DNA of 58,389 nt. It comes from Prosthecobacter sp. GTDB lineage: Bacteria > Verrucomicrobiota > Verrucomicrobiia > Verrucomicrobiales > Verrucomicrobiaceae. The stretch covers positions 1-58,389 of the forward strand of contig JAUREI010000003.1 in the NCBI GenBank assembly GCA_030827515.1. Reading direction: 5' to 3'. Of this stretch, positions 3,621 to 52,442 are shown piece by piece (the stretch's first letter is position 1; each line of letters starts with the position of its first letter). Below the pieces are notes generated by a model, which was not told where the DNA came from, searched no databases, and worked only from the letters and a program-made list of their open reading frames with translations. A program made the translations under genes and the position numbers.

Positions 3621-3652
3621 GGGGGCAGGTTGGAGGATGGGGTGGGAAAACG

Positions 3653-4873: not shown

Positions 4874-4909
4874 GACGAACAAGGCAACGCTTGGCGGCGC
4901 GCGGGTTTG

Positions 4910-4930
4910 CTGGTCAGTTGACTTGACCAG
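4910..4930. promoter_or_regulatory. Perfect inverted repeat, probable operator between sialidases and regulator
   Basis: The arms CTGGTCA (4910-4916) and TGACCAG (4924-4930) are perfect inverted repeats around a 7-base centre, giving a 21-base dyad. It sits 36 bases from the sialidase start (4873) and 26 bases from the regulator ATG (4957), where a repressor could control both directions. A TTGACT hexamer inside the dyad (4918-4923) could be the -35 box of the regulator, which would suggest autoregulation. The symmetry is seen directly; operator function is inferred. Confidence 0.6.
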
Positions 4931-4956
4931 TGAGACCGCCCGATCCAACCTGCGCG

Positions 4957-6000
4957 ATGCCCGTCCGGATTCCACGCACTTCCCTGAGCACCCAGGCCGC
5001 CGCCGTGCTTCGTTCGGAGATTGCGCAGGGCGCCTGGGGTGATCACCTGCCCGGTGAACGCCTTCTGGCGACCCGGCTTGGCGTCAGTCGCCCCACCCTG
5101 CGTGCCGCGCTTGAAACGCTGGAGGCGGAAGGCTGGCTCGAACGCCGCCAAGGGCTGCCCACACGCGTTCTGGAAGGGGGCCGGCGGCAATCCGAACGGA
5201 ACTGCACCGTGCGCATGCTCACCCCCGTGCCACTGCGCGACATGCCGCCGCTGACCGTGTGTTGGATGGATGAATTGCGCGAGCGCCTGGCCGCCGCGGG
5301 GCACCCGCTTGAGCTGGTGGTGAGTCCGGCGACCTTCACGACCCGCGGGGAACGCACGCTGCAGCGCCTGGAGCGCAGCCACCCGGGCGGTGTCTGGATC
5401 CTGCACCTGGCACCGGAGTCGCTGCAGCGGGCCTTTGCCGCGCGCGACCTGCCGGCGCTGGTGGCCGGCTCCGCCGCCCCCGGCGTTCCCCTGCCCTCGG
5501 TGGATCTCGACTACCGTGCCATTTGTCGCCACGCCGCCGGCCTAGTGCGTGCCCGTGGGCGGCGGCGGCCCGTCCTGCTGCTGCCGGACACCGCCGCCCC
5601 AGGCGACGCCGAGAGTGCCGAGGGCTTTCTTGAAGGCTGCCCCGGCGCGCGCGTGCTTCGCCATGATGGCACCCCATCCGGACTGTGTCGGCAGGTGCGG
5701 ACCGTCTGCAAGGGCCGGGAGGGTGCCGACGCTGTCGTGGTCGGCCGCTCGGTGCACGCGCTCACCGTCCTGACCTGCCTGCTTGGCGACGGTCTGCGCG
5801 TGCCGGAAGACGTCGCGGTGATCTCGCGCGATGGCGATGCCTTTCTCGGTCACGCCGTGCCCGCCCTGACCCGCTATGCGAGCGATCCGCGACGCTGGGC
5901 TGCCCTGCTCGCCCGCGAGGCCCTGCGCCTGTGCGAGGGCGTGCGCACGGGCGCAAGGCATCGCCTGATGCCTGACTTCGTGGCGGGCGGCACGCTCTAA
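4957..6000 (+). CDS. GntR-type winged-helix regulator with LacI/GalR-like effector domain
   Basis: This 347-residue protein starts at the ATG at 4957; an in-frame GTG at 4930 would overlap the operator-like dyad. The N-terminus carries a GntR-family winged helix-turn-helix (about residues 8-70, with LPGERLLATRLGVSRPTLRA). The rest resembles a periplasmic-binding-protein-like sugar sensor of the LacI/GalR or AraR kind, ending with a VPEDVAVISRDGD segment near residue 285. Such chimeric regulators are usually repressors released by a sugar. It diverges from the two sialidase genes and probably controls them in response to a glycan breakdown product. The ligand cannot be predicted from sequence. 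Confidence 0.8.
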   Translation: MPVRIPRTSLSTQAAAVLRSEIAQGAWGDHLPGERLLATRLGVSRPTLRAALETLEAEGWLERRQGLPTRVLEGGRRQSERNCTVRMLTPVPLRDMPPLTVCWMDELRERLAAAGHPLELVVSPATFTTRGERTLQRLERSHPGGVWILHLAPESLQRAFAARDLPALVAGSAAPGVPLPSVDLDYRAICRHAAGLVRARGRRRPVLLLPDTAAPGDAESAEGFLEGCPGARVLRHDGTPSGLCRQVRTVCKGREGADAVVVGRSVHALTVLTCLLGDGLRVPEDVAVISRDGDAFLGHAVPALTRYASDPRRWAALLAREALRLCEGVRTGARHRLMPDFVAGGTL

Positions 6001-25378: not shown

Positions 25379-25469
25379 GGGGCGCCATGCAGTACGCTCC
25401 TGCAACGCTCCTTTTCGCAGACACTCTTTGAACACCCGTCGTTTCCTGCCTTGGCCGTCAAGACCGTCC

Positions 25470-28400: not shown

Positions 28401-31400
28401 CTGGCCGAACACTACCGTGCCACCGGTCAGGAAGAAGCCGAGCGCCGGGTCTATGAGCAGGTGGCCCGGGTGCGTCCGTGGGATGCTCGTTCGCAGTTCC
28501 GCATCGCCCTGAAATCGCTGCGCCTGGCCGATGATGAAGCAGCGGAGGAACGACTTCGCGAAATCCTTGCCAAGACCCGGGCTCCGGCCCCTCAGCGCGC
28601 CGCCGACCCCGCCCGCCTGCCCTTGCCGCTCACCGACGCCCGCAAGGAGGGTGCACCTGGGCCCGTCACGGACCTCGCCAGCCAAATCGAGTCCGCCACC
28701 GGTCTGACTCACGAGGAGACGGGTCGGTTGCGCTCCTTTGTCAACCTGCCGCGCCCGGAACTCGTCGAACTGCCCGACAGCGTCGACCTCGTGCGCCTGC
28801 GCGTCATCGAGGAACTGGCCCGCCTGCTGCGGCGGCGTGGCGAAGCGTCCGCCCTTGCGGCCTGGAACCGTGACTGGACTGCGACCGAACGCGCTCCCAT
28901 CGAGCGCCTCTGGGCCCTGTTCTACGCCGGCAACGGCAACGGCTTCCGCAGCGTTCTGCACGACGTCCTGGGCGATTCCCCCGGTCTGGAGGCCCGATTC
29001 TGCCGGGTCTGGCTCATGCTGCGCTCCCATGGCATGAACGATGCCCTCGCCTGGGCCGGTCAGGCCGGACTCGACATCGCCGCCCAGGAGGGACGCCACC
29101 GGCTCTTGCAGGCCGCAGTCTCCATGCTGACCGACTTCGGCAACTTCCGCTATGCCCGCGGCGAACTCGCCGCCCTGGGGGCCTCACGCCTGCTTCCCAA
29201 CGCGGCCGTGCTCGAGATCACCCGATCCCTGCAGGACCGTCAACGCTACACCGAGGCCCTCGAACTCGGCGAAAGCCTGCGCGACAACTCACCGGCGCTG
29301 GCCGCCGACTACGCCTACTTCCTGTCGCGCATCGCCGAATCCGCAGAACGCTGGGACCTGGCCCGGCAGTACATCGGCCAGGTGGTGCGTGCCCCTGCAC
29401 GCCCGGGGCCCTACCGCGGCACCTACGACCCCTACGTGTACAGTCTCGCCACGGCCAGTCGCCTCGCCGTCTCCCTGCAGGAGCGCGAGCAAACGCTCGG
29501 CGAAGCATGGAAACACCTCCAGCGCACGCCGGACTCCGCCATGACGCGCATGCGCAAGGCCGTGGTCGCCGGTCTCGCCGGCGCCCGTGACACGGCTGCG
29601 GGGGAACTCGAGCAACTCGTTGCGGGAGACTTCGTCGCGGCACGCCCCATGGGCGAAATCCGCGGCATTCTCCTGCCTCAGGGCTCGGTGCGCCATGAGG
29701 AACCGCAGCACCTGCGCAGCTTCTGGGAGGAAACGCGCGAAATCCAGGCCGTCTTGATTCAGCAGGGACTGGGCAGTGTCGTGCAGGAAAGCAATCGCCG
29801 CCTCGATGACCGCCTCGGCGCCATGACCCTCAGCTCGCGCACCGGCTTCGAGTTCGGTGAATGGCGTCTCGGACATCTCCTGCGCCGGCTGCGCCAGGAG
29901 GATCCGCCGACACGCCGATGCCTGATTCGCGAACACCTCGCCAGCGTCGACATGCGCATGGAAGTCTCGGTCGACACCCTCAGCGAGCTTGGCGGGCGGC
30001 TGGAGAACAACGGCATGGCGCGCGAGGCCGTCGAAGTCTACCGGCTCCTGCCGGGACGCGCCCCGGCCAACCCGGAGTACGCCCTCTGGCTGCTGCGCGC
30101 CTGTGAGGCCTCACGCGACACCGTCAATGGTCTGGCCTTCACCGAGCAACTGCTGGCGGCCGAGCCCCCCATGAAGCCGCCGCAACCGGGCGACGAGGTC
30201 CTGCGCGAAAAACACGCCCATTTCCTGGCCCAGAACTTCGACTTTGAAACCCTGCACCGGCTCGGTTTCCCGCCGGAGGTCACACGGGTGCTGCAGGGCC
30301 GGGTGCCCGACGAGATCCCCTACCTGCGCGAACTGGCCCTGCTGCACGAACGCGCGGGAGATGATGATGCCGCCCTTGCCGCCTGGGAGCGACTGCATCT
30401 GGCCCATGTGGTCAATGCCGAAAAATCCGTTCCCCAGGACATCGAGGCCTGCCTGCACCGGGCACGCCTGCTGGAACGCAGGAAACGTCCGCAGGACGCC
30501 CTTGCCGCCCTTGCCGAAGTGGATCTCACCGGCAAACTCCACCCGCACTGGCGCGACGTTCTTGCCCTGCGAGCCCGCCTGCTCGCCGAGGTCGGTTCCT
30601 GGGAGGAATTCCGCACGCTCATGACACTGGCGGTCGACAAAAAAACCCTGTCCGCGATCCTTGAACTCGCTGGTGAACTTGAACGCCGCGACCGCCCCGC
30701 CGAGGCCCTCAATTATTTGATCCAGGCCGAACGCAGTTTGCGCGAGGAACCCGACCGCTTCCGCCTGCGCTTGGAACAGCTCAAGCTGCACAGCGCCGAC
30801 CCGGCCTGGACGCCCGAACTTGGCCGCCCCCAGGTGGCCGCCCTGTTTCGCGCGCGAAGCCGCGACCGCGAGGCCCTGAGCGCCCTGGTCGACTGGATGC
30901 GCGGCAGGGCCACCGGACCGCAGCACGACGCCTGGATCGCCGTACTCAAAGCGGAATCGCGCGCCGGACTCGACCGACCCGCGGCGACACTCGCCCTGAC
31001 CGCCTTCGCCGCCACCCTGCCGGCGAGCGCCGCCGCCGACCTCAGCGAAGGCTGGGCGGCCGCCCGCGAGGGGGATCACGCCTGCCTTGAACTGGGTGCC
31101 GAAACCCTGCTGGAACTCGGTCGCGCAACCTGGGCGCGACAGGCCTGCGATACTCTGCTGGAACTGCCCTCGCTGCGTCTCGACGGACGCAAGCGCCCAC
31201 TGATGGTTCGGATTGCCCACGCTCTCGGTGACACCGCCGGCCTGCACGACCTGTTCTCGGAAGTCGTTCACAAGAGCCAGCCCGGCGGCAGTCAGCCGGT
31301 TGAATGGGCCCAGACCTTTGCCGCCATCGGCGAACGCGGTCTCGCCCGTGAGCTGTTCGAAGCCGCGCTCGACAAGAACGACGGCAGCCAGACCCTGCAT

Positions 31401-31655
31401 GCCGGTCTTTGCACGGCCTGGATTCACTTCCTGATCGAGGAGGGCGACCTTGAAGCGGCGGAAAGTTTCCTCATGCACCACAACTGGGCCCTGCCCGGCG
31501 AGACAGCGGCCCTGCTGGTGGACCTGTATCGCGCCTGGGGCCGGCTTGACCGCATCCACGAGGAACTGCCCAAGTATCATTTGCCCTGTGGGGTTGAAAA
31601 AGAAGCCTTGTTTCTCGCCGCCCGCGCCGGCAAGCTGAAATCGACCGATCCCTGA
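25470..31655 (+). CDS. Giant secreted TPR-repeat protein (2061 residues)
   Basis: Starts at the ATG at 25470, or at 25494 (MPVPLPLLRCLRAALAALACWYGDVSAQ, a better signal peptide start). Almost the whole length is tetratricopeptide-like helical repeats rich in Ala, Leu, Arg and Glu, for example GHLLRRSGDLAGAASLYDGVLAKQPDHPAAL near residue 100, YHDLARIHELAGDFEAADAAL near 245 and EALAQVHERKGDPVRAFQAMKQAYYTAPDTP near 870. No enzyme domain is seen. Such solenoids usually scaffold protein complexes in the periplasm or at the outer membrane. A lipoprotein gene follows 3 bases after the stop, so the two are probably made together and may form an envelope complex. The length is far above most TPR proteins. 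Confidence 0.8.
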   Translation: MLDSLNSSMPVPLPLLRCLRAALAALACWYGDVSAQSPPAQWSDRETRLANEYLSLLVAQPEYGRVIDLLWSLYEKHDATPLLLENVAAQAARSSHPTLNLVHGHLLRRSGDLAGAASLYDGVLAKQPDHPAALRARAEVARELSDPAGASTFLARLAALLPPDDPAAAETWLELGTHLLAAGRTAEARDAWEKAAGMRPDDFDLARRVADLLLRAGLPAEAAAFFSRLARQDDPRRRLEAYHDLARIHELAGDFEAADAALMQGLSLLDFRDSRYEEFFRRRVRLHERFGRLDELSAHLDAAAAAQPPPERALRDLARFCAAVIDPDGQVAALRALVATLPEVEAYRWELVRVLLDHEGAKEAAALLDDKLQGTSSPALIFLRCEADLRLGQPKAAAERLGRLLEGADAEMEKQVLAFAQARALDTIVERVLHNRVERDTGRQESVFELASFHRTRKDQASADALLRRYINAAPTESERSRRLEDSAGFLAAGQDPTSALTLAREQVALPVAGRAQWLRLADLLAEQGDSAEAATWLEKAWDASTSDEERIEVDERLFSVLLGEAGAEPPTRVGTAGEFRLPDAFTGRGFAGVTEEPGLPSLPESVLEKTRTLIAASESRDASHLFRATWWALRCGQHDAAYPLLQRLQAVTGEPGLSLEADKLLLELALADQNRPLAMRVLRRLIEADEGGRIRHLLRLSELLLEAEQAALATTSNRGWRSDQPPPPPGRDAAELLKAGLRRHPDAEPLIAALAQCYLLQQRPEAAAALWSEAIRRAGDAAAIPLMERQAELFLRQNQLAEFVAVQTAITERETDIKRRREAYKRFLDRLLWDSRGGELDEEETARRLDLVEKNLTLLARKHPFDGFYHEALAQVHERKGDPVRAFQAMKQAYYTAPDTPFSSGQLRDAALRVQDLQAAIYFQKQIAAAAPPASLAAESRRLVELLEQTFQIAEADRVRRRLESRFAQDATALESLAEHYRATGQEEAERRVYEQVARVRPWDARSQFRIALKSLRLADDEAAEERLREILAKTRAPAPQRAADPARLPLPLTDARKEGAPGPVTDLASQIESATGLTHEETGRLRSFVNLPRPELVELPDSVDLVRLRVIEELARLLRRRGEASALAAWNRDWTATERAPIERLWALFYAGNGNGFRSVLHDVLGDSPGLEARFCRVWLMLRSHGMNDALAWAGQAGLDIAAQEGRHRLLQAAVSMLTDFGNFRYARGELAALGASRLLPNAAVLEITRSLQDRQRYTEALELGESLRDNSPALAADYAYFLSRIAESAERWDLARQYIGQVVRAPARPGPYRGTYDPYVYSLATASRLAVSLQEREQTLGEAWKHLQRTPDSAMTRMRKAVVAGLAGARDTAAGELEQLVAGDFVAARPMGEIRGILLPQGSVRHEEPQHLRSFWEETREIQAVLIQQGLGSVVQESNRRLDDRLGAMTLSSRTGFEFGEWRLGHLLRRLRQEDPPTRRCLIREHLASVDMRMEVSVDTLSELGGRLENNGMAREAVEVYRLLPGRAPANPEYALWLLRACEASRDTVNGLAFTEQLLAAEPPMKPPQPGDEVLREKHAHFLAQNFDFETLHRLGFPPEVTRVLQGRVPDEIPYLRELALLHERAGDDDAALAAWERLHLAHVVNAEKSVPQDIEACLHRARLLERRKRPQDALAALAEVDLTGKLHPHWRDVLALRARLLAEVGSWEEFRTLMTLAVDKKTLSAILELAGELERRDRPAEALNYLIQAERSLREEPDRFRLRLEQLKLHSADPAWTPELGRPQVAALFRARSRDREALSALVDWMRGRATGPQHDAWIAVLKAESRAGLDRPAATLALTAFAATLPASAAADLSEGWAAAREGDHACLELGAETLLELGRATWARQACDTLLELPSLRLDGRKRPLMVRIAHALGDTAGLHDLFSEVVHKSQPGGSQPVEWAQTFAAIGERGLARELFEAALDKNDGSQTLHAGLCTAWIHFLIEEGDLEAAESFLMHHNWALPGETAALLVDLYRAWGRLDRIHEELPKYHLPCGVEKEALFLAARAGKLKSTDP

Positions 31656-40481: not shown

Positions 40482-41048
40482 ATGACCGGCCTGATCGAGG
40501 TCAAGGTCGCGGAGTTGGCCCAATTGTTCAACTCCATGGATCCCTCGCCCTTCCTGGAGCGGGACCTCGATCATGCCGCGGAGGAGTTCATCGTCGGCTG
40601 GGCGCGGGAACACCCGCGACAGCATGACCTGCACCTGCTGATTCACCTGACCCGGCCACCGACCGGCGAATTGGCCACCCTTGAGCCCGTCAAGGACTCG
40701 ATCCGGCACTACTTTGAGTATCGCGCCGACGAACTGTGGCGCGAGTTCCGCCAACTCATGCGCGAAGGCCGGGCCGCCCTGCTGATCGGCCTCCTCTTCA
40801 TTGTCCTCTGTCAGACGGCGGCGCAAACCCTGCTGCCTGGTTCCCAGGGCTGGCAGGCGGCGGCGCGCGAAGGACTGACGGTCCTCGGCTGGGTGGCCCT
40901 GTGGAAACCTCTCGACATCCTCCTGTATCGGTGGTGGCCGCTGCTGCGCCGCCGGCGGCTTTTCCAACGGCTGGCTGTCATGGCCATCGAAATCCGCGCG
41001 GCCCCGCTTCACGACGGCAGCGCGGCCATCGGCACCGACAGGGGCTGA
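40482..41048 (+). CDS. Conserved membrane protein of unknown function
   Basis: This 188-residue protein starts at the ATG at 40482, four bases after the dismutase stop. The N-terminal cytoplasmic part has the segments LFNSMDPSPFLERDLDHAAE and EFIVGWARE. I recognise these as a conserved pattern in uncharacterised bacterial proteins, but know no function. Two hydrophobic segments lie at about residues 95-116 and 125-146. Its last 40 bases overlap the 3' end of the convergent SulP-carbonic-anhydrase gene. It is likely co-transcribed with the dismutase. Confidence 0.7.
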   Translation: MTGLIEVKVAELAQLFNSMDPSPFLERDLDHAAEEFIVGWAREHPRQHDLHLLIHLTRPPTGELATLEPVKDSIRHYFEYRADELWREFRQLMREGRAALLIGLLFIVLCQTAAQTLLPGSQGWQAAAREGLTVLGWVALWKPLDILLYRWWPLLRRRRLFQRLAVMAIEIRAAPLHDGSAAIGTDRG

Positions 41049-43288
41049 AGGCTGGAGTCGACCGTCTGGAAGAAGTCGACCCGGCCGCTGCCCACATCGT
41101 AGAGCGCGCCGACAATGGCGATCCGGCCCTCGTGCACCAGTTTGTCGAGCGTGGCACTGCGCTCGCGAATCATGCGGATGGTGCGCATAACGTTGTGACG
41201 TGAAATCTCGTTGGCGTAGGCGACTTTTTCACCCGGCGCCCACTGGTCCGGTTGTTTGAGGGTGGATGGATTGATCGACTGCTGGATCTCGGTGACCAGT
41301 CCGTCGAGGTTGCCGCAGGGTGTGGCTTCACTGGCTTTTTTGGCGGCCGCCAACAGGTCAACCGCGGCATTCACCGCCCCGCAACTGGTATGACCGAGCA
41401 CGACCACCAGCTTCGAGCCCACCACCGCACAGGCGTATTCCAGGCTGCCGAGCAGTTCCGGCGTGGCAATGTTGCCGGCGACGCGGGCGCTGAAAATGTC
41501 ACCCAACCCGAGATCGAACACCAATTCGGCCGGTGCGCGTGAATCAATGCAGCCAAGGACGGCGGCCATGGGGAACTGGCCCGCGGACGTGGCCTCAACA
41601 AGACGATTCTGGTCGCGCGTCAGCGGCCGGCTGCCAAGAAAGCGCTCATTGCCCTCCTGCAGCAGTTGCAGAACTCGCGCCGGCGTGAGCTCCTGCAGCA
41701 CTTCCCGACTGCTGTAATCCACGAACTGGATCTGGTCCTGCAGTTGCGGGTACCGGTCGCGGAACCCCTTGAAGCTCAGGTTGATGCCAAGAGCGCCGGC
41801 GGTGGTGTCGCGGAAGTCGGCAATCAGGTCGAGAACATCCGGGTCAATGTAATCCGTGTTGCTGGCATCCAGCAGCAGGTGACCGCCGCGGGGCACACTG
41901 CGCAGGGCCTGCTCAAGCGAAGCCCGGCTCAGGAAGCTGACCTGATTGGCCAGCACGATGTGCATGACGTCCCCGCTGACATGTTTCTCAAGAATGCGCC
42001 GCAACGGCCGGCGGGCATTGCCGTGCAGGATGAAGCCGATGGACACGGCCAGGCCGATCAGCACGCCGATCAGCAGGTCGGTGAGCACGATGGCGACGAT
42101 GGTGATGATGAAGGGCAGGAACTGCTTCCGGCCCTCGCTCCACATCTGGCGCATGAGCTTCGGGCTGGCCAGTTTCAGACCGGTCATCAGCAGGATGGCG
42201 GCGAGGGCTGCAAGCGGGATTTCATTGAGCCAGGCCGGCATCAGCACGACGCAGCCAACCAGCAGTAAGCCATGCCAGATGGCGCTGACCTTGGTCTCCG
42301 CCTTGGTATGGATGTTGACCGAACTGCGGACGATGACGCTGGTCATCGGCAGGCCGCCGATGAGACCGGCGGCGATGTTGCCAACCCCCTGGGCGAGGAG
42401 TTCCCGGTTGGGCGGGGTCAGGCGCTGCTTCGGGTCGAGCTTGTCCACCGCCTCGATGTTGAGGAGAGTCTCGAGTGAGGCGACCACGGCGATGGTCACC
42501 GCCGCCGTATAGACCGCTGGATTGCCGAGCACGCTCCAGTCGGGAAAGATCAGTGCGTTGCGAATGAAATCCCCGGGACCCTCCGTCACCGGCACCGCCA
42601 CGAGGTGACTGGGTTCAATCACCATCACTCCCCCAAACAGCCGGAAGAGTTGGTTCACCAGGACGGCGAGCACCACCACAACGAGTGGCGCCGGCACAGG
42701 CGACTGCTTGAGAGCCTTGATCCTGTCCCAAAACACAATCAGGGCAATGGACAAGGCCCCGACAAGCATGGCGCCGGGATGCACGTCGAAGAAGGCGACC
42801 ACCAGTTCGGAAAAGGTGTTTTCCCCGTCCTTTTGCTGGAAGGACTTGTCCCCCATCGGGTCGGTGTCATGCCCCAGCAGGTGAGGAATCTGTTTGAGGA
42901 TGAGGATCACGCCGATGGCGGCGAGCAGACCCTTGATGACGCTCAGGGGGAAGAAGGCCGAGATGAAACCCGCCCGACACACACCCATGATCACTTGGAA
43001 GGCCCCGGCCAGAACCACCGCCACAAGAAAGCCTTGAAACGAGCCGAGTGCGGCAATTTGGGCTGCCACGACGGCCGTGAGGCCCGCCGCAGGCCCGCTG
43101 ACGCTGGTGTGTGATCCGCTCAGCACACCCACCAGAATGCCACCGATGATGCCGGCAATCAGGCCGGCGATGGGTGGGGCGTTGGAGGCAATAGCCACGC
43201 CGAGACACAGAGGCAGGGCGACGAGGAAAACGACAAGCCCCGCGATGAGGTCCTTGGGCAGTGTGGCAGTGGATTTGACACCTGTCAT
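41009..43288 (-). CDS. SulP-family bicarbonate/sulfate transporter fused to beta-carbonic anhydrase
   Basis: This 759-residue protein has three parts. Residues 1-415 are a SulP transporter with about 10-12 membrane segments (PKDLIAGLVVFLVALPLCLGVAIAS, SGPAAGLTAVV, GLPMTSVIVRSSVN). A STAS-like domain covers about 430-535 (LLLDASNTDYIDPDVLDLIADF). A beta-carbonic anhydrase covers about 545-745, with the zinc site Cys-x-Asp-x-Arg (GCIDSRAPAEL, about 580) and His-x-x-Cys (GHTSCGAV, about 631-634). The fusion would move bicarbonate (or sulfate) and hydrate CO2 at the membrane. It is the fourth gene of the dabA-led minus-strand series. A TTGACA box 76 bases upstream may give it its own promoter. 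Confidence 0.94.
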   Translation of the reverse strand: MTGVKSTATLPKDLIAGLVVFLVALPLCLGVAIASNAPPIAGLIAGIIGGILVGVLSGSHTSVSGPAAGLTAVVAAQIAALGSFQGFLVAVVLAGAFQVIMGVCRAGFISAFFPLSVIKGLLAAIGVILILKQIPHLLGHDTDPMGDKSFQQKDGENTFSELVVAFFDVHPGAMLVGALSIALIVFWDRIKALKQSPVPAPLVVVVLAVLVNQLFRLFGGVMVIEPSHLVAVPVTEGPGDFIRNALIFPDWSVLGNPAVYTAAVTIAVVASLETLLNIEAVDKLDPKQRLTPPNRELLAQGVGNIAAGLIGGLPMTSVIVRSSVNIHTKAETKVSAIWHGLLLVGCVVLMPAWLNEIPLAALAAILLMTGLKLASPKLMRQMWSEGRKQFLPFIITIVAIVLTDLLIGVLIGLAVSIGFILHGNARRPLRRILEKHVSGDVMHIVLANQVSFLSRASLEQALRSVPRGGHLLLDASNTDYIDPDVLDLIADFRDTTAGALGINLSFKGFRDRYPQLQDQIQFVDYSSREVLQELTPARVLQLLQEGNERFLGSRPLTRDQNRLVEATSAGQFPMAAVLGCIDSRAPAELVFDLGLGDIFSARVAGNIATPELLGSLEYACAVVGSKLVVVLGHTSCGAVNAAVDLLAAAKKASEATPCGNLDGLVTEIQQSINPSTLKQPDQWAPGEKVAYANEISRHNVMRTIRMIRERSATLDKLVHEGRIAIVGALYDVGSGRVDFFQTVDSSLQPLSVPMAALPS

Positions 43289-43393: not shown

Positions 43394-44800
43394 TTAGTTC
43401 GGGACTCTGTGACCATGTCCGGTCTCCCCATCCCCTGGCACCAGCGTGGCCTCCTCGGCTGCCATTCGGCGCCACTCCAAGATCCGCCCCGGCATCAAGC
43501 CTCCAGCCAGCAGGAACACCACACAGGCCGCCAACGGCCAGCGCTCCCGCGGCAGGGCATCGGGGATGTCGATGACCCGCTTGGGAAGCACACCGAGGAA
43601 GAGCAGGCTGTAAATACGCAGCAGATTGATGGCATTGAAGGCCGTGGCGACCGGAAGGGCCAGACCCAACCAGGGGTGGTTTTCCAGTGCCCCATGGAAA
43701 ATGAGATCCTCGGCACAATAGCCGAGGGTGCCCGGCAAACCCACCAAGGCCAGGCCACAGATGAGGAAAAAGGTGGCCAGACGCGGTGCCTTGACCGCTA
43801 GGCCGAGGTGGCCGTCGGGTGCCGCCGTGCCGGAGACGCGCACTTCCAGCACCCGGACGATGGCGATCAGACCGGTGGAGGCGGCGGCCACGACCAGCCA
43901 GTGCAGCAGAGCCCCGGCGACGCCCTCGGCATTGGCTGTCGCAATGCCAGCCAGGATGAAACTTGCCTGCGACAGGCAAAGCAGGCCAAGCAGGCGCCGA
44001 GGCCGGGATTCGGCAAAAGATCTGATGCTGGTAATCAGGGCGGTGGCCAGGGCGGCAATGCCCAGGAGGTCGAGGGTGTGCTGTTCCGCCTGCGTGAGGG
44101 CGACCGCCTCGCTGCGGGCCACGAGCAGGGCTCCCAGGTGTCCATTGAACAGCAGGGCAACAGGCAGAAGGGGTCCGTGATCGAACTGGCGCACCATCCA
44201 GCCATGCAGCGGAAACAGCCCCTTTCGCAGTGCCACGGCGAGCACCACCAATCCAAAGGACAGGCGGCTGGCATGGGCAATTTCCTGCATCTCGACGCCA
44301 TGCATCAGGAAAATCGAGGCGGTCAAAGCCAGGCTGCTGAGACACAGAATAATCAGAACCGACCGTCGGCTGCGGTCTTCGCCAAACAAGCGCAGGGCAA
44401 AGGGCAGGCCGGTCAACCACCATCCCACGGCGAGAACCCCAAGGTTGGCAGCCCCGTAGGCGGTCTGTGTGGCGGCGGCCAGCAGCAGCAGTCCGGCCAT
44501 CGACTTTCCTCCGGCGTCCCGACGGGGTGCAAGCAGGATGACCAGCAGCGTCAGCGCAGCGAAGAAAGCCATGGGCACGGCATCCAGAGCGTCGGCCTCA
44601 AAGCAGCTGCACAAGGGGTCAAAAAGCCGCTCATGCCCGGCAACGGCGACCTCGCGGGCGGCCAGTGCAAAGCTCGTGAAGGCGGCAAGGGCGGCCCCGG
44701 CCGCCAAGGGCCGCGGACGAGCGGCAAACAGGCTGGAAACGGCACCCGCCAGCAGGGCGCCGATGCCGAGAGAAAGATAGGGGGCGGCAAGCAGGCTCAT
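43394..44800 (-). CDS. NuoM-like proton-conducting membrane subunit of the DAB locus
   Basis: This 468-residue polytopic protein belongs to the NADH-dehydrogenase/Mrp antiporter membrane-subunit superfamily. The segment ALRKGLFPLHGWMVRQFDHGPLLPVALLFNG (about 190-220) resembles the conserved lysine-bearing helix of NuoM/NuoL-type proteins. LVGLPGTLGYCAEDLIFHG (about 355-373) is also typical. It overlaps the upstream NuoL/DabB-like gene by four bases, so they are translationally coupled. Classic DAB systems have one such subunit (DabB); here there are two. No complex I genes are nearby, so it most likely carries protons to energise DabA rather than working in respiration. Confidence 0.85.
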   Translation of the reverse strand: MSLLAAPYLSLGIGALLAGAVSSLFAARPRPLAAGAALAAFTSFALAAREVAVAGHERLFDPLCSCFEADALDAVPMAFFAALTLLVILLAPRRDAGGKSMAGLLLLAAATQTAYGAANLGVLAVGWWLTGLPFALRLFGEDRSRRSVLIILCLSSLALTASIFLMHGVEMQEIAHASRLSFGLVVLAVALRKGLFPLHGWMVRQFDHGPLLPVALLFNGHLGALLVARSEAVALTQAEQHTLDLLGIAALATALITSIRSFAESRPRRLLGLLCLSQASFILAGIATANAEGVAGALLHWLVVAAASTGLIAIVRVLEVRVSGTAAPDGHLGLAVKAPRLATFFLICGLALVGLPGTLGYCAEDLIFHGALENHPWLGLALPVATAFNAINLLRIYSLLFLGVLPKRVIDIPDALPRERWPLAACVVFLLAGGLMPGRILEWRRMAAEEATLVPGDGETGHGHRVPN

Positions 44801-46152
44801 GGGATGGCAGAAACAGAAGGCGGGGGCGCAGTTGGTTCAGCGGCTGGGGGCGACCGGCGCTCCGGATGCGACTCGAACACGCCCAGCAAACGGGCCAGTG
44901 CAATCGCCGGGAGAACGATGAACCGATCCAGAATCGCGTCGTAAAAACCCCGGCCCAACGCCATGCGATAAAGCGCCACCTGCACCGACTTGGGCAGCAG
45001 CGAGTCATACTGTTCGCCGGTCGGGTCGATCTGGCCGCCGGCGGCGGCGTGCACACGGTGGTAATCACGCAGCATGGAGGGGGAGCGCAGGAACTGCAGG
45101 GTGCGCAGGACAGCGTGGCTGACCAGATGCACCACGGCAAAGGTCGTCCAGCCAAAACCGATTTCGGCAAATATCAGGCCAAGCTGGGTTTGCGCGGCAT
45201 AGGCCAGTGAAGTCTTGGCATCCGCGCAGGTGCGATGCACCAGCGTGCCCAAGGAGGCAGTGGTCAGCCCGATGAAGATCACCAGCGAGGTGGCAACCCA
45301 GGAGGCGTGCAGCAACGGCTCGATGCGCAGCAGCAGGTAGGCACCGGCATGCACCGAGATGGCGCCGTAAAAGACCGCGCTGGAAGGGGTCGGCCCCTCC
45401 ATCGCGCGCACCAGCCAGCCGCAGAAGGGCCCCTGGGCCGACTTGCCGCTCGCGGCAAAGACCAGCAGCACCGCGACGACTGAAGCCGCCGCACCATCCA
45501 GCTGGTTGACATGCCCCGGCCACTCACCGCTGAAAAAGCCATGCCAGGAGGCCGTGTGAAACCAGTGGTGGGCCAGGAAGACCGCCAGCAACAGGCCGAG
45601 GTCGGCAATGCGATAGATGCCAAAGACGCGCTGGGCGTTGCGCACCGGATCCGGGCGGTTCTGGAAAAAGCCGATCAGCAGCACCGAGGTGATGCCCACC
45701 AGTTCCCAGCCGCAAAGCAGCAGGTCCAGTGAATCGGCCGTGAACACCAGCAGCGCCCCGAAGGTGAACAGGTACTGCAGAAGGAAAAAGCGGAAGAAGC
45801 CGGGATCGCGGTGGAGGTAACGAACACTGAAGGCACCGACAACGCCGGCAAGGACCACGGTGACACCGACCAATGGCAGGGAGAGCCGATCGATCAGCAG
45901 TGCCAGCGGGAAATGATAGCGTGCGACGCTGAACCAGTCGCCCGCCGACACCCGCACTGTGGTCAGCCCACCGCGCCACATCTGCCAAAAGAGGGCGCAG
46001 GCCACCAGCGCCAGGAGCAGATACAGGGCCTTGGTAAGATTGGCCAGCAACCGCTCGGAGAGGCCGACACCCAGCAGCCAGAGCATGCCCAGAATGACGA
46101 AGGCGGCGCCGGGGGCGGCAACCAGCAAAAGAGTGAGGGATTCGGCAGTCAT
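44797..46152 (-). CDS. dabB: DabB-like (NuoL-type) proton-conducting subunit of the inorganic-carbon transporter
   Basis: This 451-residue protein starts at the ATG at 46152, two bases after the dabA stop; a TTG at 46167 is an alternative. It has about 12 membrane segments and the NuoL-type motifs LLLCGWELVGITSVLLIGFF (about 140-160), GKSAQGPFCGWLVRAMEGPTPSSAVFYGA (about 235-263, holding the channel lysine) and LVHRTCADAKTSLAYAAQTQLG. In DAB (DABs accumulate bicarbonate) systems DabB couples the proton gradient to DabA. The position directly behind dabA supports the assignment. It is somewhat shorter than NuoL and lacks its long C-terminal lateral helix. Confidence 0.9.
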   Translation of the reverse strand: MTAESLTLLLVAAPGAAFVILGMLWLLGVGLSERLLANLTKALYLLLALVACALFWQMWRGGLTTVRVSAGDWFSVARYHFPLALLIDRLSLPLVGVTVVLAGVVGAFSVRYLHRDPGFFRFFLLQYLFTFGALLVFTADSLDLLLCGWELVGITSVLLIGFFQNRPDPVRNAQRVFGIYRIADLGLLLAVFLAHHWFHTASWHGFFSGEWPGHVNQLDGAAASVVAVLLVFAASGKSAQGPFCGWLVRAMEGPTPSSAVFYGAISVHAGAYLLLRIEPLLHASWVATSLVIFIGLTTASLGTLVHRTCADAKTSLAYAAQTQLGLIFAEIGFGWTTFAVVHLVSHAVLRTLQFLRSPSMLRDYHRVHAAAGGQIDPTGEQYDSLLPKSVQVALYRMALGRGFYDAILDRFIVLPAIALARLLGVFESHPERRSPPAAEPTAPPPSVSAIP

Positions 46153-46154
46153 GT

Positions 46155-49085
46155 TCAGGCGGCGCAAACGGGTTCGATGCGGGCAAGGGGCAGATGGCCC
46201 GACTTGCCCTGGTACCAGGTGCGCGAATCCGGCGTCACCGGCAGCGGCTCCTCGTCACCAGTGAGCGGTTCAAAGCGATCGCCCCCCCGGTAGACCTCGA
46301 TATGACCATCGCAGGGATCCATCGTTGCGAGACGAATCCATTGATTGCACACGAACTCCACCAGCTCGGGGTTCGCGCGCACCACGCCCATGAGTCGCTC
46401 GGGCGTGGTCTCAACGATGAAAAGGATGCGCACGGGTTCGTGCACCTCCACCGTCTGCAGCGGCAGTCCGGTTCGCAGGTCGCCCTGAAAGCCGTTCATC
46501 ACACCCACCAGCCCGGTGATGTTGTGGGGCAGCTTGGTGCCGCTGCCGTAGACCTCGTTGTCCACGGTCGAAAAGTAGTATTCCAGATTGATGCCACCGC
46601 AGACCGGGATGACCGCGGCGAGCACGCGCGCCAGGGACTTGTCCTCCGGATCGGCATCCGGGTCATAGCTGACGAGGAAGGCCCGGCGATCCAAAAACAA
46701 TCCGCGCGTGCGGGTGCGGCGTCCGACGAAGGCAACGGCATTCGTGCAGTGACCATATTCGGGGCGAGGTTCGGCAATGTGCTCGGCGCGCGCCTGCACG
46801 TGCCGCAGCGCCCTCTCCCCCTGAATGCCGGGACCGGCGGTTCCAAAGCGTCGCACCCGCTCGTCGGCATTCAAGACGCGCGCACGGTCAAGCGACTGCT
46901 GCACGCGATTGAGATCTCCGCGATGGGACGACGGCATGAGGTCGACGTCAAAAAACTCAATGTCGTCGCTACAGGTGTCGTGGTAGCCGCCGAGGAACCA
47001 GGTGTCCTCGGGAATGACCACCCCCCGTGAGCGCAGCGCCGTACGGACGCCGGGGCGATTTGCCATGATGGCGAAAAGTCGCGCGTTCGGTGCACCGGTG
47101 CGGCCGCCGCAGGCCCCGCAGCAATAGGCCGACTCGTAGGGATTGTTGAGACTGGTGCTGCCGTGACCGAGAACGACCACCAGGCGGGCGTGCGCGCGGT
47201 GCAGACCGGCGGGCCCGAGGACGGACAGCACACGCTCGGCCATCTCCTCCTCGGTGAACCCCTGCAGCAGGCCGGTCGTGGCATCATGTGACTCGGCGTC
47301 ATCGCGCATGAAGGTGACCTCGGTCTTCGGTTCCGGAAGGAAGGCACGATTGAGGCGACGGATCAGCCGCCCGTAACTGCGCGGACTGAGAACGCGAAAC
47401 ACCAGGGGAAAGAGTGACAGCAGCCCCAGGCAGGCGGTGCTGATCCAGCCGCGCACGAGGGTGCGCGAGGAAATGAAGGCATTGCGCGTCAGCTTGGCCC
47501 AAGCCCGACGCAGCCATTGCCGCTTTGCCTGCAGGTGGGCATGGCCGCCGACGGCCACCTCGCGGACCGCATGCGCGGGAGTGACAACCACAGGACAAAG
47601 GGAGACGCCTCCGGCATCGTCGAGGCCGGCATAATTGATCGCCACGCCAAAAAAGCCGGCCGCGCCCACCGTCTCCATGCAGGGATCCACCTCCTCGAGC
47701 GCGCGACGGAAGGATTCTTCACGCTCGTCGATGCAGAAGAGGACTTGGGCGGCCAGTCGGTCGACCGCCGGCATGCTCAACGGACGGGCACGATGCTTGG
47801 CCAGCGGGATGAGGATACTGCGCTCATGGCGGCGTTCGTAGGCGAGATGCAGCAGGCGACGACGCTCAATTTCGTTGCAGGCAACGACCTCCGAGGACAG
47901 TCGCTGAAAGTCAGCCCCGGACAGTGCCTCCAGTTCATAGCTTGGCAGGCCGAGAAGCTGGGCGGCATCGAAAAAGCGCGCCACCGGCGTCAGGCGGTCG
48001 ATGTTTGGCGCTTCCACCCGCTGGGAGCGCCAGGAGGTGGTGTCGCCCATGATGTCCTGCAAAGCGGCGAGCGTGTAGGTGAGGCGCAGGGCAAGAAACT
48101 CCATCAACGAGCAGCGGATGCGATCGTGAGGTGCCAGGGTCACATCCTTCTCGAGCATGTGCACCATGCCCGCCCAGCCACGCAGCGGCAGCAACTCGGC
48201 GGTGACATAGTCCTCCCACTCCGCTTCCGGCACGCCCAGACGTTCCAGGGCATCGAGCACGACGTCCTCCACGCCCATGGCCTGCTGCTGTTGGCGTAAA
48301 AATTCGCCGCGCACCGCCCCGAGGTGCCTGCGTTGCAGGGCAAAGGGTTGCGACATGATGCGGCGGGCGGCGGCCAGCAGGCCCAATTCCCGGTGGGGCA
48401 TCGGCCAATAGGCAATGCCCTGATCAAGGTAGGCCCCGACCAAGCGGATCATCGGTGGATGGACGACGCGATCAAGATCCTCGCCGGTCGCGGCAAGGAC
48501 AGCCTCATGGGGCCGTCGGGGTGTCCGGGGCTGCAAATCGGCGTGGAATTCGACGCGCTTGAGACAGGCCTGCCAGAGTTTCAGTGGCGTGTCACCCGTG
48601 AGCAGGTGGGCGGAGGCGGGAGGAAGATCCCTGCGAAAATGACTGAGCCAGTCGCCCTCCTCAATCTGCCAGGCGATGTCGAGGCCGTTGACCCGTCGCA
48701 CCCCGGGAATCAGCAGGGCGCGGCGCAGACGACGGCGACTGAGACGGCCGGGAAGGACCTCGGCATCCGGTTCGCCGGCAAGCACGGCATCAATGTCCTC
48801 GTCGAGAATCCGCCCCTCGGAACGGGCGTTCTGGTATTCCTCCTCGGTCAGAAACGGCTCCGCCTCGAACAGTTCGGCCGCCTCAATCACGGAGGATTCA
48901 AAATCCTGGTGCTGAAAGGCGTGCAGGGTGTTGTGATGAACAAACACGCCCATCGGTCCCTGGCTCGGCAGGCAGTGTGACGCATGTTCAAGCACAAGCC
49001 GGAGCTTGGCATGCCGGGCATCCGTGCCGGCCACCGGCGCGGCGCTCGTGCAACCGCAGGTTTCGGAGCAGGACGGGGAATTCAT
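46155..49085 (-). CDS. dabA: DabA (DUF2309/UPF0753) inorganic-carbon uptake subunit
   Basis: This 976-residue protein starts at the ATG at 49085 (MNSPSCSETCGC); longer frames reach into the porin leader and lack similarity. The family is recognised by FVHHNTLHAFQHQDFE (about 60-75), and by a beta-carbonic-anhydrase-like zinc site: Cys-x-Asp-x-Arg in FCIDEREESFRRALE (about 450), His in VLGHGST (about 640) and Cys in YCCGACGGRTGAPNAR (about 655). With DabB it forms a membrane complex proposed to hydrate CO2 one way, trapping it as bicarbonate at the cost of the proton gradient. It leads a four-gene minus-strand run. The window shows no Rubisco. Confidence 0.95.
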   Translation of the reverse strand: MNSPSCSETCGCTSAAPVAGTDARHAKLRLVLEHASHCLPSQGPMGVFVHHNTLHAFQHQDFESSVIEAAELFEAEPFLTEEEYQNARSEGRILDEDIDAVLAGEPDAEVLPGRLSRRRLRRALLIPGVRRVNGLDIAWQIEEGDWLSHFRRDLPPASAHLLTGDTPLKLWQACLKRVEFHADLQPRTPRRPHEAVLAATGEDLDRVVHPPMIRLVGAYLDQGIAYWPMPHRELGLLAAARRIMSQPFALQRRHLGAVRGEFLRQQQQAMGVEDVVLDALERLGVPEAEWEDYVTAELLPLRGWAGMVHMLEKDVTLAPHDRIRCSLMEFLALRLTYTLAALQDIMGDTTSWRSQRVEAPNIDRLTPVARFFDAAQLLGLPSYELEALSGADFQRLSSEVVACNEIERRRLLHLAYERRHERSILIPLAKHRARPLSMPAVDRLAAQVLFCIDEREESFRRALEEVDPCMETVGAAGFFGVAINYAGLDDAGGVSLCPVVVTPAHAVREVAVGGHAHLQAKRQWLRRAWAKLTRNAFISSRTLVRGWISTACLGLLSLFPLVFRVLSPRSYGRLIRRLNRAFLPEPKTEVTFMRDDAESHDATTGLLQGFTEEEMAERVLSVLGPAGLHRAHARLVVVLGHGSTSLNNPYESAYCCGACGGRTGAPNARLFAIMANRPGVRTALRSRGVVIPEDTWFLGGYHDTCSDDIEFFDVDLMPSSHRGDLNRVQQSLDRARVLNADERVRRFGTAGPGIQGERALRHVQARAEHIAEPRPEYGHCTNAVAFVGRRTRTRGLFLDRRAFLVSYDPDADPEDKSLARVLAAVIPVCGGINLEYYFSTVDNEVYGSGTKLPHNITGLVGVMNGFQGDLRTGLPLQTVEVHEPVRILFIVETTPERLMGVVRANPELVEFVCNQWIRLATMDPCDGHIEVYRGGDRFEPLTGDEEPLPVTPDSRTWYQGKSGHLPLARIEPVCAA

Positions 49086-49285: not shown

Positions 49286-50719
49286 ATGCCATTTCCCACC
49301 CAACACCCCTTATCCCGCCGCGCCGCGCTGCCCAGCCTTGCCGTCAGTCTGCTGGTCGCCCTGACCGCCTCCGCTGGCCCGGTGACCCCCACTCCCACCC
49401 TGGCCGAAGCCGCCGGGCTCAAGTCCAACCCGTTGAGTTTTGCCGACGGCGCCCTGACGTTGGACACGCATTTCAACAGCCGTTTCGAGGCGCGCGACAA
49501 TTGCAATGATTTCAATTCCGCGGTGAACTCTCCGACCGATGCCAGTTGGCTGCTGACACGCTTCCGCCTGGGCGCCCTCTTCCACCCCACGGACGGGTTC
49601 AAACTCTATGTCCAGGGCCAGGATATCCGTGAACTGGGCGGCAGCCGTCCCAACAATGTAGGCACCTTTGGCGCCGACGGCGACGATGTCTTCGACATCC
49701 TGCAGGCCTGGACCGAGTTGGGCGACGACAGCCGCGGTCTGAGCCTGCGCGCGGGCCGCCAGCCCTTCAACTACGGCGACCAGCGCCTGCTCGGCAATCC
49801 GCAGTGGCTGAATTCCACCCGCGCTTGGGATGCCTTGCGGCTTCGTTATGCGAAGGAAACCTGGAGCCTAGACCTGTTCTCCGGCAGCCCGGTGACCTTC
49901 GTCAACAACCAGTGGAACAAGTCCGACTTCTTCAACACCCATGAAGGACGCGACGCCATCGACAGCGGCGCCTGGTTTTCCTCGCGCACCCTCGTGCCCT
50001 GGCAGAAACAGACCGATTTCTTCGTCATCAACCAGCGACTCGACAAACTGCCGGGCGCCCCGGGGGCACCCCTCGGCGCCGGCGGCCACAGCAATGTCTG
50101 GAGCCTCGGCACCCTGATGAAGGGCGACCCGGCAAAACTGGCCAACTGGGACTATGACTTTGAGACTGTCCTGCAGCTCGGTCGCGCCGGCGGTCTCTCG
50201 CACCGCGCCTTCGCCGGCCATGGCGGCATCGGCTACAACTTCTCCGGCCCCTGGAAACCCCGGCTTGGCGTGCAGTACAACTACGCCTCCGGCGACCGCG
50301 ATCCGACCGACGGCAACAGCCGCACCTTCCAGAATTACTTCCCGGGCAACCACGCACTTTATGGCTTCATGGACACCACCGGCTGGATGAACCTGCACAA
50401 CCCGCAGCTCAATTTCTCCGTTCAGCCCACGGAACGGCTCAAACTCACCTTCGATGCCATGACCTTCTGGAATGCCACCAACACCGACGCTTGGTATAGC
50501 GCCAACACCACGACCACCGTCCGGCCGGTCAACAACGCCGCACGCGGTGCCAGTCGTTACCGCGGTGCCGAACTCGACGTCAACGCCTGGTACAAGCTCA
50601 ACACCCACGTCGCCCTGCAGGCCGGTTACGCCTGCTATCTGGCCGGCAACTACCTGGCACGCACGGGTGCCAGCGACAACGCCCATTTCGGTTACGCGCA
50701 GCTCTCGGTCACCTTCTGA
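49286..50719 (+). CDS. Outer-membrane beta-barrel porin (alginate-export family type)
   Basis: This 477-residue protein has a signal peptide (RRAALPSLAVSLLVALTASAGP). A barrel rich in alternating aromatic and polar residues follows, ending in the outer-membrane signature LSVTF with terminal Phe. Motifs such as WLLTRFRLGALFHPTDGFKLYVQGQDIRE, LSLRAGRQPFNYGDQRLLG and WDALRLRYAKETWSLDLFSG match the alginate-export/AlgE-like porin family. It diverges from dabA and precedes a second SulP gene, so it may provide an outer-membrane path for bicarbonate or another anion. The substrate is inferred only from location. Confidence 0.85.
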   Translation: MPFPTQHPLSRRAALPSLAVSLLVALTASAGPVTPTPTLAEAAGLKSNPLSFADGALTLDTHFNSRFEARDNCNDFNSAVNSPTDASWLLTRFRLGALFHPTDGFKLYVQGQDIRELGGSRPNNVGTFGADGDDVFDILQAWTELGDDSRGLSLRAGRQPFNYGDQRLLGNPQWLNSTRAWDALRLRYAKETWSLDLFSGSPVTFVNNQWNKSDFFNTHEGRDAIDSGAWFSSRTLVPWQKQTDFFVINQRLDKLPGAPGAPLGAGGHSNVWSLGTLMKGDPAKLANWDYDFETVLQLGRAGGLSHRAFAGHGGIGYNFSGPWKPRLGVQYNYASGDRDPTDGNSRTFQNYFPGNHALYGFMDTTGWMNLHNPQLNFSVQPTERLKLTFDAMTFWNATNTDAWYSANTTTTVRPVNNAARGASRYRGAELDVNAWYKLNTHVALQAGYACYLAGNYLARTGASDNAHFGYAQLSVTF

Positions 50720-50822: not shown

Positions 50823-52442
50823 ATGTCCGCCCCCTCCCCCTCCGCCGTCGCCCCCGGCCCGAAACCGGTAGGCAACCTCGCCGGTCTCCGTCAGCATTTC
50901 GCCAAGGACGCCATTTCCGGCTTTCTGGTCTTCCTGATCGCCCTGCCCCTCTGCCTCGGCATCGCCAAGGCCAGCGGCTGTCCGGCCATCGCCGGTATTT
51001 TCACCGCGGTTGTTGGCGGCATGCTGACCCCCTTCCTGAGCAACTCCGAGCTCACCATCAAGGGACCTGCCGCCGGCATGATCGCCATCGTGCTCGGAAC
51101 GGTCAATGAACTCGGCTACGAAAAGGCACTCGCGGTCGGCATGGTGTCCGGCTGTCTGCAGATCCTGTTTGGCGCGCTCCGCCTCGGCACCCTCGGCGAA
51201 TTCTTCCCCGTGGCCGCCGTCCACGGCATGCTCGCCGCCATCGGCGTCATCATCATCTCGAAACAGATTCACGTTGCCCTCGGCGTCGCCGCGCATGCCA
51301 AGGAACCGCTCGAACTGCTGGCCGAACTGCCGCACAGCCTGATGAACTTGAACCCGGAGATCGCCCTCATCGGTGCGCTCTCCCTGATGCTGCTGTTCGG
51401 GCGACTTCTGATCAAAAACAAGGTCATCCAGGCCATTCCCGGACCGCTGATGGTATTGCTCGCCGCAGTGCCGCTGTCCTTCTACTTCGACATCTCCCAC
51501 CAGCACATGTACCAGTTCCACGGCCACTCCTACGAGGTCGGTCCGGACAAGCTGGTCAACCTGCCGCTCAACATCCTCGACGGCATCAAGGGCCCCGATT
51601 TCTCCGCGATCTTCAGCGCCGCAAGCCTGAAGTGGATCGTCATGTTCTGCCTCGTCGGCAGCCTGGAATCCATGCTGAGCGCCAAGGCGGTGGATCTGCT
51701 CGACCCCTGGCAGCGCCGCACCGACCTCAACCGCGACCTGCTCGCGGTGGGTGTCGCCAACACCCTCGTCGCCTGCATCGGCGGCCTGCCGATGATCTCC
51801 GAAATTGTGCGTTCCTCCGCGAACAAGAACAACGGGGCACGCACCCGCTGGGCCAACTTCTGGCACGGCGTTTTCCTGCTCCTGCTGGTCGCCAGCGTGC
51901 CCTCCCTGCTCAACCACATCCCGCTCGCCGCCCTCGCCGGCATGCTGGTCTTCACCGGCTACAACCTTGCCTCTCCCAAGGAGTTCCGCCACATGCTGCA
52001 TGTCGGCAAAGGCCAGCTGGTTGTCTTTGTCGCCACCCTGATCGCCACCCTCGCCACCGACCTGCTGCTCGGCATCGCCTTCGGCATCGTGGTCAAGCTG
52101 GTCCTGCACGTCTGCAGCGGTGTCAGCCCCGCCAACCTGCTGAAGCCGCACGCGGAGATTGAAACCTGCCCGAACGAGGGCCACCCTGTGGTTCGCGTGC
52201 ACGAGGCCGTCGTCTTCAGCAACTGGCTGCCGCTGCGCAAAAAGCTGCTCGCCCTGCGCAGCCACCCCAAAGTGCGAGTTTGCCTTGCCGGCACCCGCTT
52301 CGTCGACCACTCGGTGATGAAGAAGCTGGAGGAAATGGTCCAGGATTGGAAGCTCGAAAACCGCGAGCTGATCATCGAGGGCCTTGAGGCTCACCAGCCC
52401 GTTTCCGACCACCCCCAGGCCGCCCGCCTGCTGCGTGCCTGA
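50823..52442 (+). CDS. SulP-family anion transporter (BicA-like) with STAS domain
   Basis: This 539-residue protein has about 10-12 membrane segments: [24 protein letters not shown] (about 29-52), [14 protein letters not shown] (80s) and [29 protein letters not shown] (about 320-345). A C-terminal STAS-type domain covers about 440-530 ([20 protein letters not shown]...[13 protein letters not shown]). Unlike the SulP at 41009 it has no carbonic anhydrase. It resembles SulP proteins from heterotrophs annotated as bicarbonate or sulfate transporters. The setting beside dabA/dabB and the fused SulP-carbonic anhydrase favours bicarbonate, but this is inference. Confidence 0.9.

Follow-up and report, generated by a model that had tools for sequence, protein, structure and literature searches.

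We describe here three adjacent genes, dabA, dabB and a NuoM-like gene named dabM, in DNA from Prosthecobacter sp. (Verrucomicrobiota; Verrucomicrobiaceae). The whole stretch analyzed, called the window below, is 58,389 nucleotides long and comprises positions 1 to 58,389 of contig JAUREI010000003.1 (forward strand; GenBank assembly GCA_030827515.1). The genes lie head to tail on the minus strand in the order dabA, dabB, dabM. DabA and DabB residues are compared by the numbering of DAB2 (DabA2-DabB2) of Halothiobacillus neapolitanus (PDB 9rd0; PMC13144422). The three genes, and the sites placed in them by alignment, are as follows (TM, transmembrane helix).

46155..49085 (likely; open frame to 49292), minus strand: dabA, vectorial beta-carbonic-anhydrase-like subunit (PF10070, E 5.2e-232; PDB 9rd0_A, E 5e-73)
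46152..44797, minus strand: dabB, 451 amino acids, PF00361 and PF00662, best NCBIfam matches to NuoL models (below model cut-offs), shortened after TM11
44800..43394, minus strand: dabM, 468 amino acids, NuoM-derived third subunit, PF00361 (E 8.7e-24), best NCBIfam match to NuoM model TIGR01972 (below model cut-off)
47382..47477, minus strand: DabA membrane finger region, no acidic residue at the Glu444 position
46740..46763, minus strand: DabA site aligned with Leu658 of DabA2, occupied by His (PEYGHCTN)
45691..45711, minus strand: DabB TM5 Glu E150, equivalent to NuoL E144 and to Ile151 in DAB2
45085..45132, minus strand: DabB TM11, both channel His kept, Lys347 position changed to Arg
44408..44428, minus strand: DabM TM5, NuoM Glu144 position occupied by Trp (W128)
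43691..43741, minus strand: DabM TM12, conserved acids E364/D365 (position of NuoM E407 and NuoL K399-D400)

The 1,045-residue open frame of dabA is probably over-long at its start; homology in the alignment points to a start near 49085. The initial annotation of the window placed a NuoL-like gene next to dabA and a NuoM-like gene after it, with a 4-base overlap, and both coordinates and identities are borne out by the Pfam and NCBIfam matches and by the ATGA at 44797-44800, which is common to the end of dabB and the start of dabM. We considered dabM as a misplaced complex I gene and as a chance open frame; both were dropped, since the complex I L, M and N genes of this genome stand apart on contig C168 and dabM has conserved homologues. 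By gene order only, the locus fits clade C of the DabA/YbcC family, the COGNAT clade of YbcC/COG3002 operons in which ybcC (dabA) lies upstream of a nuoL homologue and genes for SulP (COG0659) and NuoM (COG1008) are frequent neighbors (PMC5700660). That paper assigned YbcC no function, and its section on these operons does not treat the NuoM-like gene at the level of residues. A literature search, conducted mostly without subscription journals, found no residue-level study of the clade with this dabA-dabB-dabM (A-B-M) order.

The locus set comprised 33 A-B-M loci from Verrucomicrobiota (from family genomes, one phylum-sample genome and two further families of the class), 26 of subtype C1 and 7 of subtype C2. 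In all 33, dabM abuts dabB, the distance from the dabB stop to the nearest dabM start being -8 to +20 bases, and the description of the locus as a three-gene rather than a two-gene DAB-type set is thus upheld. The 4-base overlap was dropped as a conserved feature, being present in only 7 of the 33 loci by the nearest-start rule, or 8 with the inclusion of L176, whose end is likewise ATGA. A divergent SulP gene stands beside dabA in 20 of 26 C1 loci, and a SulP gene on the same strand lies immediately upstream in 7/7 C2 loci. The locus of G433 (C2) is cut by a contig end, partial loci L033, L036 and L038 were left uncounted, and L034, L035, L037 and L039 are apparently identical to L138, L141, L139 and L140. 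The dabM gene of L166 runs off its contig, yet this locus was counted.

DabM homologues with 49 to 73% identity (subtype C1) and the same gene order occur in many Verrucomicrobiaceae genomes; the close relatives (seven named records) are metagenome-assembled genomes of Prosthecobacter and other Verrucomicrobiaceae. Within this family, DabA was found in 47 of 68 genomes and a DabM match (E 1e-25 or better) in 34, all of which carry DabA. Counted loci came from 27 of these 34 genomes (the 26 of subtype C1 plus G402); the remaining seven (G405, G412, G419, G420, G429, G431 and G437) gave none, because of a broken or truncated dabA or dabM or because the genes fall on different contigs. In the phylum sample, at least 14 of 387 genomes contain DabA (phylum and class counts are lower bounds, up to four candidates having been scored per genome in the large samples). 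Apart from the genome of the window, 12 of the 13 others have the order dabB-dabA with no DabM match in the stretch examined, and one (G234) has dabA-dabB-dabM. When plasmids were searched with C1 DabM and with the DabA and DabB of each subtype, all matches fell below 60% identity; the six plasmid DabA regions examined have the B-A order, one of them with a hypothetical gene in between. A scan of viral contigs found no relative. In genome G406, loci L136 and L137 on the contig labeled C1 bring together a C1-type A-B-M set, a C2-type A-B-M set and a canonical B-A set, making three DAB systems in about 25 kb.

Phylogenetic placement was obtained from a tree of 96 antiporter-like proteins (quick method, midpoint root, with a long-branch warning), which was used instead of a comparison of the DabM and DabB alignment profiles (probability 1.9% from shallow alignments, Neff 1.4). 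Ten DabM rows from both subtypes form one clade (support 100) that is sister to NuoM (96), and DabB is placed in the NuoL part of the tree. In the same tree, 10 clade-C DabB rows form one clade (100) that is sister to canonical DabB (96). The proposal that the NuoM-like gene co-evolves with dabA agrees with the tree distances of DabM and DabA, which, compared without a control gene, correlate with r of 0.996 over 31 loci, a value that owes much to the split between the two subtypes, and 0.906 within C1 (shuffled maximum, 0.572). DabM and DabA show nine supported conflicts, of which the six printed ones hinge on the placement of L139 and L160. Within C1, r is 0.95 for DabM and DabB, with 2 supported conflicts, and 0.92 for DabA and DabB, with 12. 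In L139 (genome G434), dabA groups with another lineage and dabB and dabM remain with the relatives of the window, as if dabA alone had been replaced.

DabM was compared with 13 NuoM sequences of the phylum (that of the same genome and rows from L005-L029, with L021 excluded). Two alignment modes agree, and a HMMER alignment of DabM with 6tjv_D gives the same picture at TM5, TM10, TM11 and TM12. The residue numbers, which we take to be those of Escherichia coli NuoL and NuoM, were placed on DabM by alignment. The NuoM-type channel set consists of a TM5 Glu, TM8, TM10 and TM11 His and a TM12 Glu, each present in 13/13 NuoM, and only the TM12 acid remains in DabM. The TM5 Glu is replaced by Trp in 26/26 C1 rows and falls in a gap in 7/7 C2 rows. 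Phe replaces the TM8 His and Gln the TM10 His in all 33, and the TM11 His is Val or Leu in C1 and Ser, Ile or Thr in C2. The position of the NuoL TM10 Lys is Arg (33/33). The TM12 Glu is kept at 364 in every C1 row (26/26) and is shifted by one position in every C2 row (7/7), and position 365 is acidic throughout (33/33). Among solved structures, the DabM profile matches best to 6tjv_D (E 1.1e-29), a chain titled 'NADH dehydrogenase subunit 4' in entry 6TJV for NDH-1MS. All 13 NuoM sequences have Leu at the TM7 lysine position.

DabB was compared with 23 canonical DabB rows, which contain near relatives and from which L031 was excluded. Clade-C DabB keeps R182, D185, K235, S256, K310, H339 and H343 in 33/33 rows, and in all 33 it has Tyr for H260, Ala for S316 and Arg for K347. 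Canonical DabB has S256, K310, S316, H339, H343 and K347 in 23/23, H260 in 22/23, R182 and D185 in 19/23 and K235 in 18/23. The Ile151 position is Glu in 33/33 clade-C rows, as in NuoL, versus 0/23 canonical rows. After the K347 position, where DabB2 holds TM12 to TM15 (PMC13144422), clade-C DabB has 81 to 109 residues, versus 147 to 226 in canonical DabB and 179 in DabB2. Hydrophobic segments after TM11 number zero (19 rows) or one (14 rows) in clade C and four (22 rows) or three (1 row) in the canonical set; DabB2 has four. Along the 294 positions of PF00361, DabB covers 1-228 and DabM 39-290, which are complementary halves. A correspondence of the clade-C DabB tail to the C-terminal axial helix of DabB2, which would mean an internal loss, was not upheld; profile searches of clade-C versus canonical DabB tails gave no significant match in either direction (best E 0.019, 5.7 bits, from one C2 row).

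In DabA, the equivalents of C351, H524 and C539, which we take to be zinc ligands, are kept in 33/33 clade-C rows, as is D353. The last of these is named in the DAB2 structure paper (PMC13144422). The finger Glu444 position is acidic in 0/33 clade-C rows versus 24/24 canonical rows, a set that likewise contains near relatives; the aligned letter varies with the alignment (Ser, Thr or Phe in one, Ala, Val or Thr in the other) and is never acidic. Four of 31 rows have acids somewhere in the 52 residues of the finger stretch, at sites beyond its conserved hydrophobic core. Both E444A and E444Q abolish DAB2 activity (PMC13144422). The Leu658 position is His in 33/33 clade-C rows and Leu in 24/24 canonical rows; Leu658 has been reported as strictly conserved across 150 homologues, and canonical beta-carbonic anhydrases carry Gln or His at this place (PMC13144422). 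Because DAB2 L658Q showed no CO2 hydration in vitro and several Leu658 changes remained active in vivo (PMC13144422), no gain of activity can be claimed from the clade-C His.

The A-B-M set has the features of the DAB/DAC family, namely a PF10070 protein with the zinc-site residues and an adjacent NuoL-like PF00361 subunit that groups with canonical DabB (96). Like DAB2, clade C has a homologous DabA with the zinc-site positions kept and a homologous DabB (E 6.7e-31) with most of the TM5-TM11 channel residues kept. It differs from DAB2 in its A-B-M rather than B-A order and its additional DabM, in the absence of the finger Glu444, in His for Leu658 and Glu for Ile151, and in the missing DabB helices after TM11 (TM12-15), which pack with the finger in DAB2. 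The outer half-channel of DAB2 is formed by DabB TM12-13 and the DabA finger Glu (PMC13144422). Since clade C is without these parts and DabM keeps mainly the TM12 acid, one path shared between subunits is the simplest account.

We propose that the locus encodes a three-subunit DAB-type inorganic-carbon pump with a single proton path shared by DabB and DabM. We give this reading a probability of roughly 0.43, lowered slightly from 0.45 because S316A is itself harmful in DAB2 and because the tail match was not upheld. As has been proposed for DAB2, protons entering through the membrane part would drive the hydration of CO2 to bicarbonate at a buried zinc site of DabA. Most of the Glu, Lys and His residues of the path in TM5-TM11 would come from DabB, and the TM12 acid, no longer given by the shortened DabB and by the finger without Glu444, from DabM. 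In complex I, NuoM packs against NuoL, and DabM would probably pack on the TM5/TM6 face of DabB in the same manner, which would explain why DabB keeps an interface Glu that is absent from two-subunit DABs. In complex I, NuoL E144 is described as close to the boundary between membrane subunits (PMC13144422), and NdhF3 of the cyanobacterial NDH-1MS complex retains ion pairs at its interface with NdhD3 (PMC6981117); by analogy, these locations suggest that DabM may sit beside DabB as NuoM does by NuoL. The gene set, its conservation, the residues lost and retained, the shortened DabB and the co-inheritance are read from the sequences themselves, and from them we infer the assembly of the subunits, the route of the protons, one path instead of two, and the direction and substrate of transport.

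More tentatively, the channel may be built in trans. The NuoL-derived subunit, without its outer helix bundle, would give the inner half and the interface Glu, the NuoM-derived subunit, without its inner channel, would give the outer acid, and the finger would be chemically idle. Such an arrangement may keep the ancestral NuoL-NuoM pairing, and two-subunit DABs may be a simplification of it, with DabM gone and an acid acquired in the finger. Bicarbonate for biosynthesis would be a likelier use than the Calvin cycle, because none of the 68 family genomes matched the RuBisCO large subunit (a control matched in 5 of 14).

Several observations weigh against a shared path. H260, S316 and K347 are altered in all 33 clade-C DabB rows, and Ala changes at these three positions harmed DAB2, the clade-C S316 to Ala being the very change found harmful there (PMC13144422); the path of DabB itself may thus be altered or lost. 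A Glu introduced at position 151 of DAB2 halved growth yield (PMC13144422). C2 DabM has its TM12 Glu moved by one position and its TM5 aligned to a gap. The TM7 lysine is usually held to be central to an antiporter-type channel, yet the phylum's NuoM are without it in 13/13, and the NuoL of the same genome has Gln at the TM10 His position as DabM does, so that loss of a single residue need not abolish conduction. Clade-C DabB and DabM each form one clade (10 rows each), and the contrasts drawn here therefore amount to about one evolutionary event and not 33 independent ones. Operon mates may show congruent trees without contact, and with no control gene in the correlations, plain vertical operon descent would also produce the congruence. 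Single-chain structure predictions were poor, with a mean predicted local distance difference test score (pLDDT) of 42.3 for DabM (8 sequences) and 43.5 for DabB (7 sequences); they were unusable and gave no conclusion on fold.

The main rival, which draws on the analogy with NDH-1MS and which we hold to be unlikely, is that DabM conducts no protons and either guides CO2 to DabA, much as NdhF3 may guide it within that complex, or only holds the complex together, protons passing through DabB alone by an altered outer half. It would account for polar channel positions that are now bulky or nonpolar (Trp for the TM5 Glu in C1, Phe for the TM8 His, the TM11 replacements) and for the Arg at the NuoL TM10 Lys position. 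The best solved match of DabM also comes from NDH-1MS, in which NdhF3 is an antiporter-like subunit whose lateral channel has turned nonpolar and through which CO2 diffusion has been modeled (PMC6981117). However, the TM12 acid kept in 33/33 DabM would be superfluous for a gas path, DabB alone is without the DAB2 outer half-channel region and DabA without Glu444, and the NDH-1MS gas path sits in the NuoL-like and not in the NuoM-like subunit.

The initial annotation took DabM for a second proton channel that could raise the number of protons used per carbon, and this part of it fares poorly. Neither the A-B-M arrangement nor the stoichiometry idea is new; both were printed in 2017 in a paper suggesting that how many ions are moved may be determined by how many membrane subunits are present (PMC5700660). 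As a complete channel for protons (or sodium), DabM would allow two ions per CO2 hydration and possibly a higher accumulation ratio. Two different antiporter-like subunits are indeed conserved side by side, and by analogy with complex I more such subunits would mean more ions (PMC5700660). Yet DabM has lost most of the antiporter-type channel residues, having neither the Glu in TM5 nor the three His (TM8, TM10, TM11) found in every NuoM compared from the phylum, and DabB has lost its helix bundle after TM11; neither subunit resembles a full channel alone. These losses together favor one shared path or a nonconducting DabM. Two independent channels are the least fitting of these three possibilities and appear quite improbable, and the interpretation in the initial annotation is, overall, partly supported.

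A little further down still, we regard with considerable doubt a carbonic anhydrase-driven or sodium-coupled bicarbonate system in place of a proton-driven CO2 pump. In such a system, the His at the Leu658 position, found in 33/33 where canonical beta-carbonic anhydrases have Gln or His, would restore a normal beta-carbonic-anhydrase site, and the homologue MpsAB has been argued to be sodium coupled; set against this is the failure of DAB2 L658Q to hydrate CO2 in vitro (PMC13144422). That DabM is a mere operon neighbor with its own job, for example a stand-alone cation exchanger not joined to DabA-DabB, is very improbable given adjacency in 33/33 loci, trees that agree and losses that complement one another across the three subunits, although physical contact of DabM with DabA-DabB is a prediction and the structure models reached pLDDT values of only 42.3 and 43.5.

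The three-subunit arrangement with its proposed shared path can be set beside other complexes. At the tip of NDH-1MS (CupA-NdhF3-NdhD3, PDB 6TJV), as here, a CO2-hydrating subunit stands on a pair of NuoL-like and NuoM-like subunits. CupA has another fold, however, and that complex is redox driven, whereas here the carbon enzyme is a PF10070 protein; there the NuoL-like subunit lost channel charges, and here the NuoM-like one did. The likeness to complex I is one of descent, with DabM branching as the sister of NuoM and DabB placed in the NuoL part of the tree. The locus differs from complex I, whose L, M and N genes this genome carries on another contig, in that a Pfam scan of 25 of 42 selected window frames found no electron-input or redox gene, including any NDH-1MS redox subunit (no genome search for cupA was made). 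DAB1 of H. neapolitanus, with a similar order in Nitrobacter hamburgensis, also has three genes, but there the third gene, lying between dabB and dabA, encodes a small membrane protein or a hypothetical protein and is not described as a NuoM homologue. On a Nitrobacter hamburgensis plasmid (L062), a DAB1-like set in which a hypothetical gene separates dabB from dabA lies by carboxysome genes, and the DabA of this set keeps the finger Glu.

The coupling model for DAB2 rests on the finger Glu and DabB TM12-13, with Leu658 reported as strictly conserved. Clade C has none of these three, and despite lacking them this conserved clade keeps the zinc site and a NuoM-like partner. Comparison of the two DAB forms would allow tests of the way in which proton flow powers CO2 hydration and of the number of protons spent, and clade C forms an architectural link between DABs and the cyanobacterial complex I that takes up CO2.

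The dabA, dabB and dabM genes are flanked by two SulP transporter genes.

41009..43288, minus strand: SulP transporter fused to beta-carbonic anhydrase (PF00916, E 2.5e-59; PF00484, E 8.9e-36)
50823..52442, plus strand: divergent SulP transporter (PF00916, E 6.9e-56)

The fusion gene lies directly downstream of dabM, 105 bases behind it, and is perhaps a member of the same carbon-supply cluster. In the window, dabA is separated from the divergent SulP gene by a gene for an alginate-export-family porin (49286-50719); several relatives (e.g., L034 and L035) have the SulP gene directly adjoining dabA. The genome also encodes a second DabA, of the canonical type. A canonical dabA is on short contig C193 (L001), and a DabB-like gene is on short contig C187 (L081); the two are perhaps one locus broken by assembly.

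Elsewhere in the window, a PSCyt1/PSCyt2/PSD1 gene and an opposite-strand frame of 2,193 codons, with TPR repeats near its start, overlap in the open-frame calls (22922-25471 and 25074-31655). At 2487-6000, two neighboring genes with BNR repeats (sialidase-like) lie by a GntR-type regulator with a periplasmic-binding-protein-like domain.

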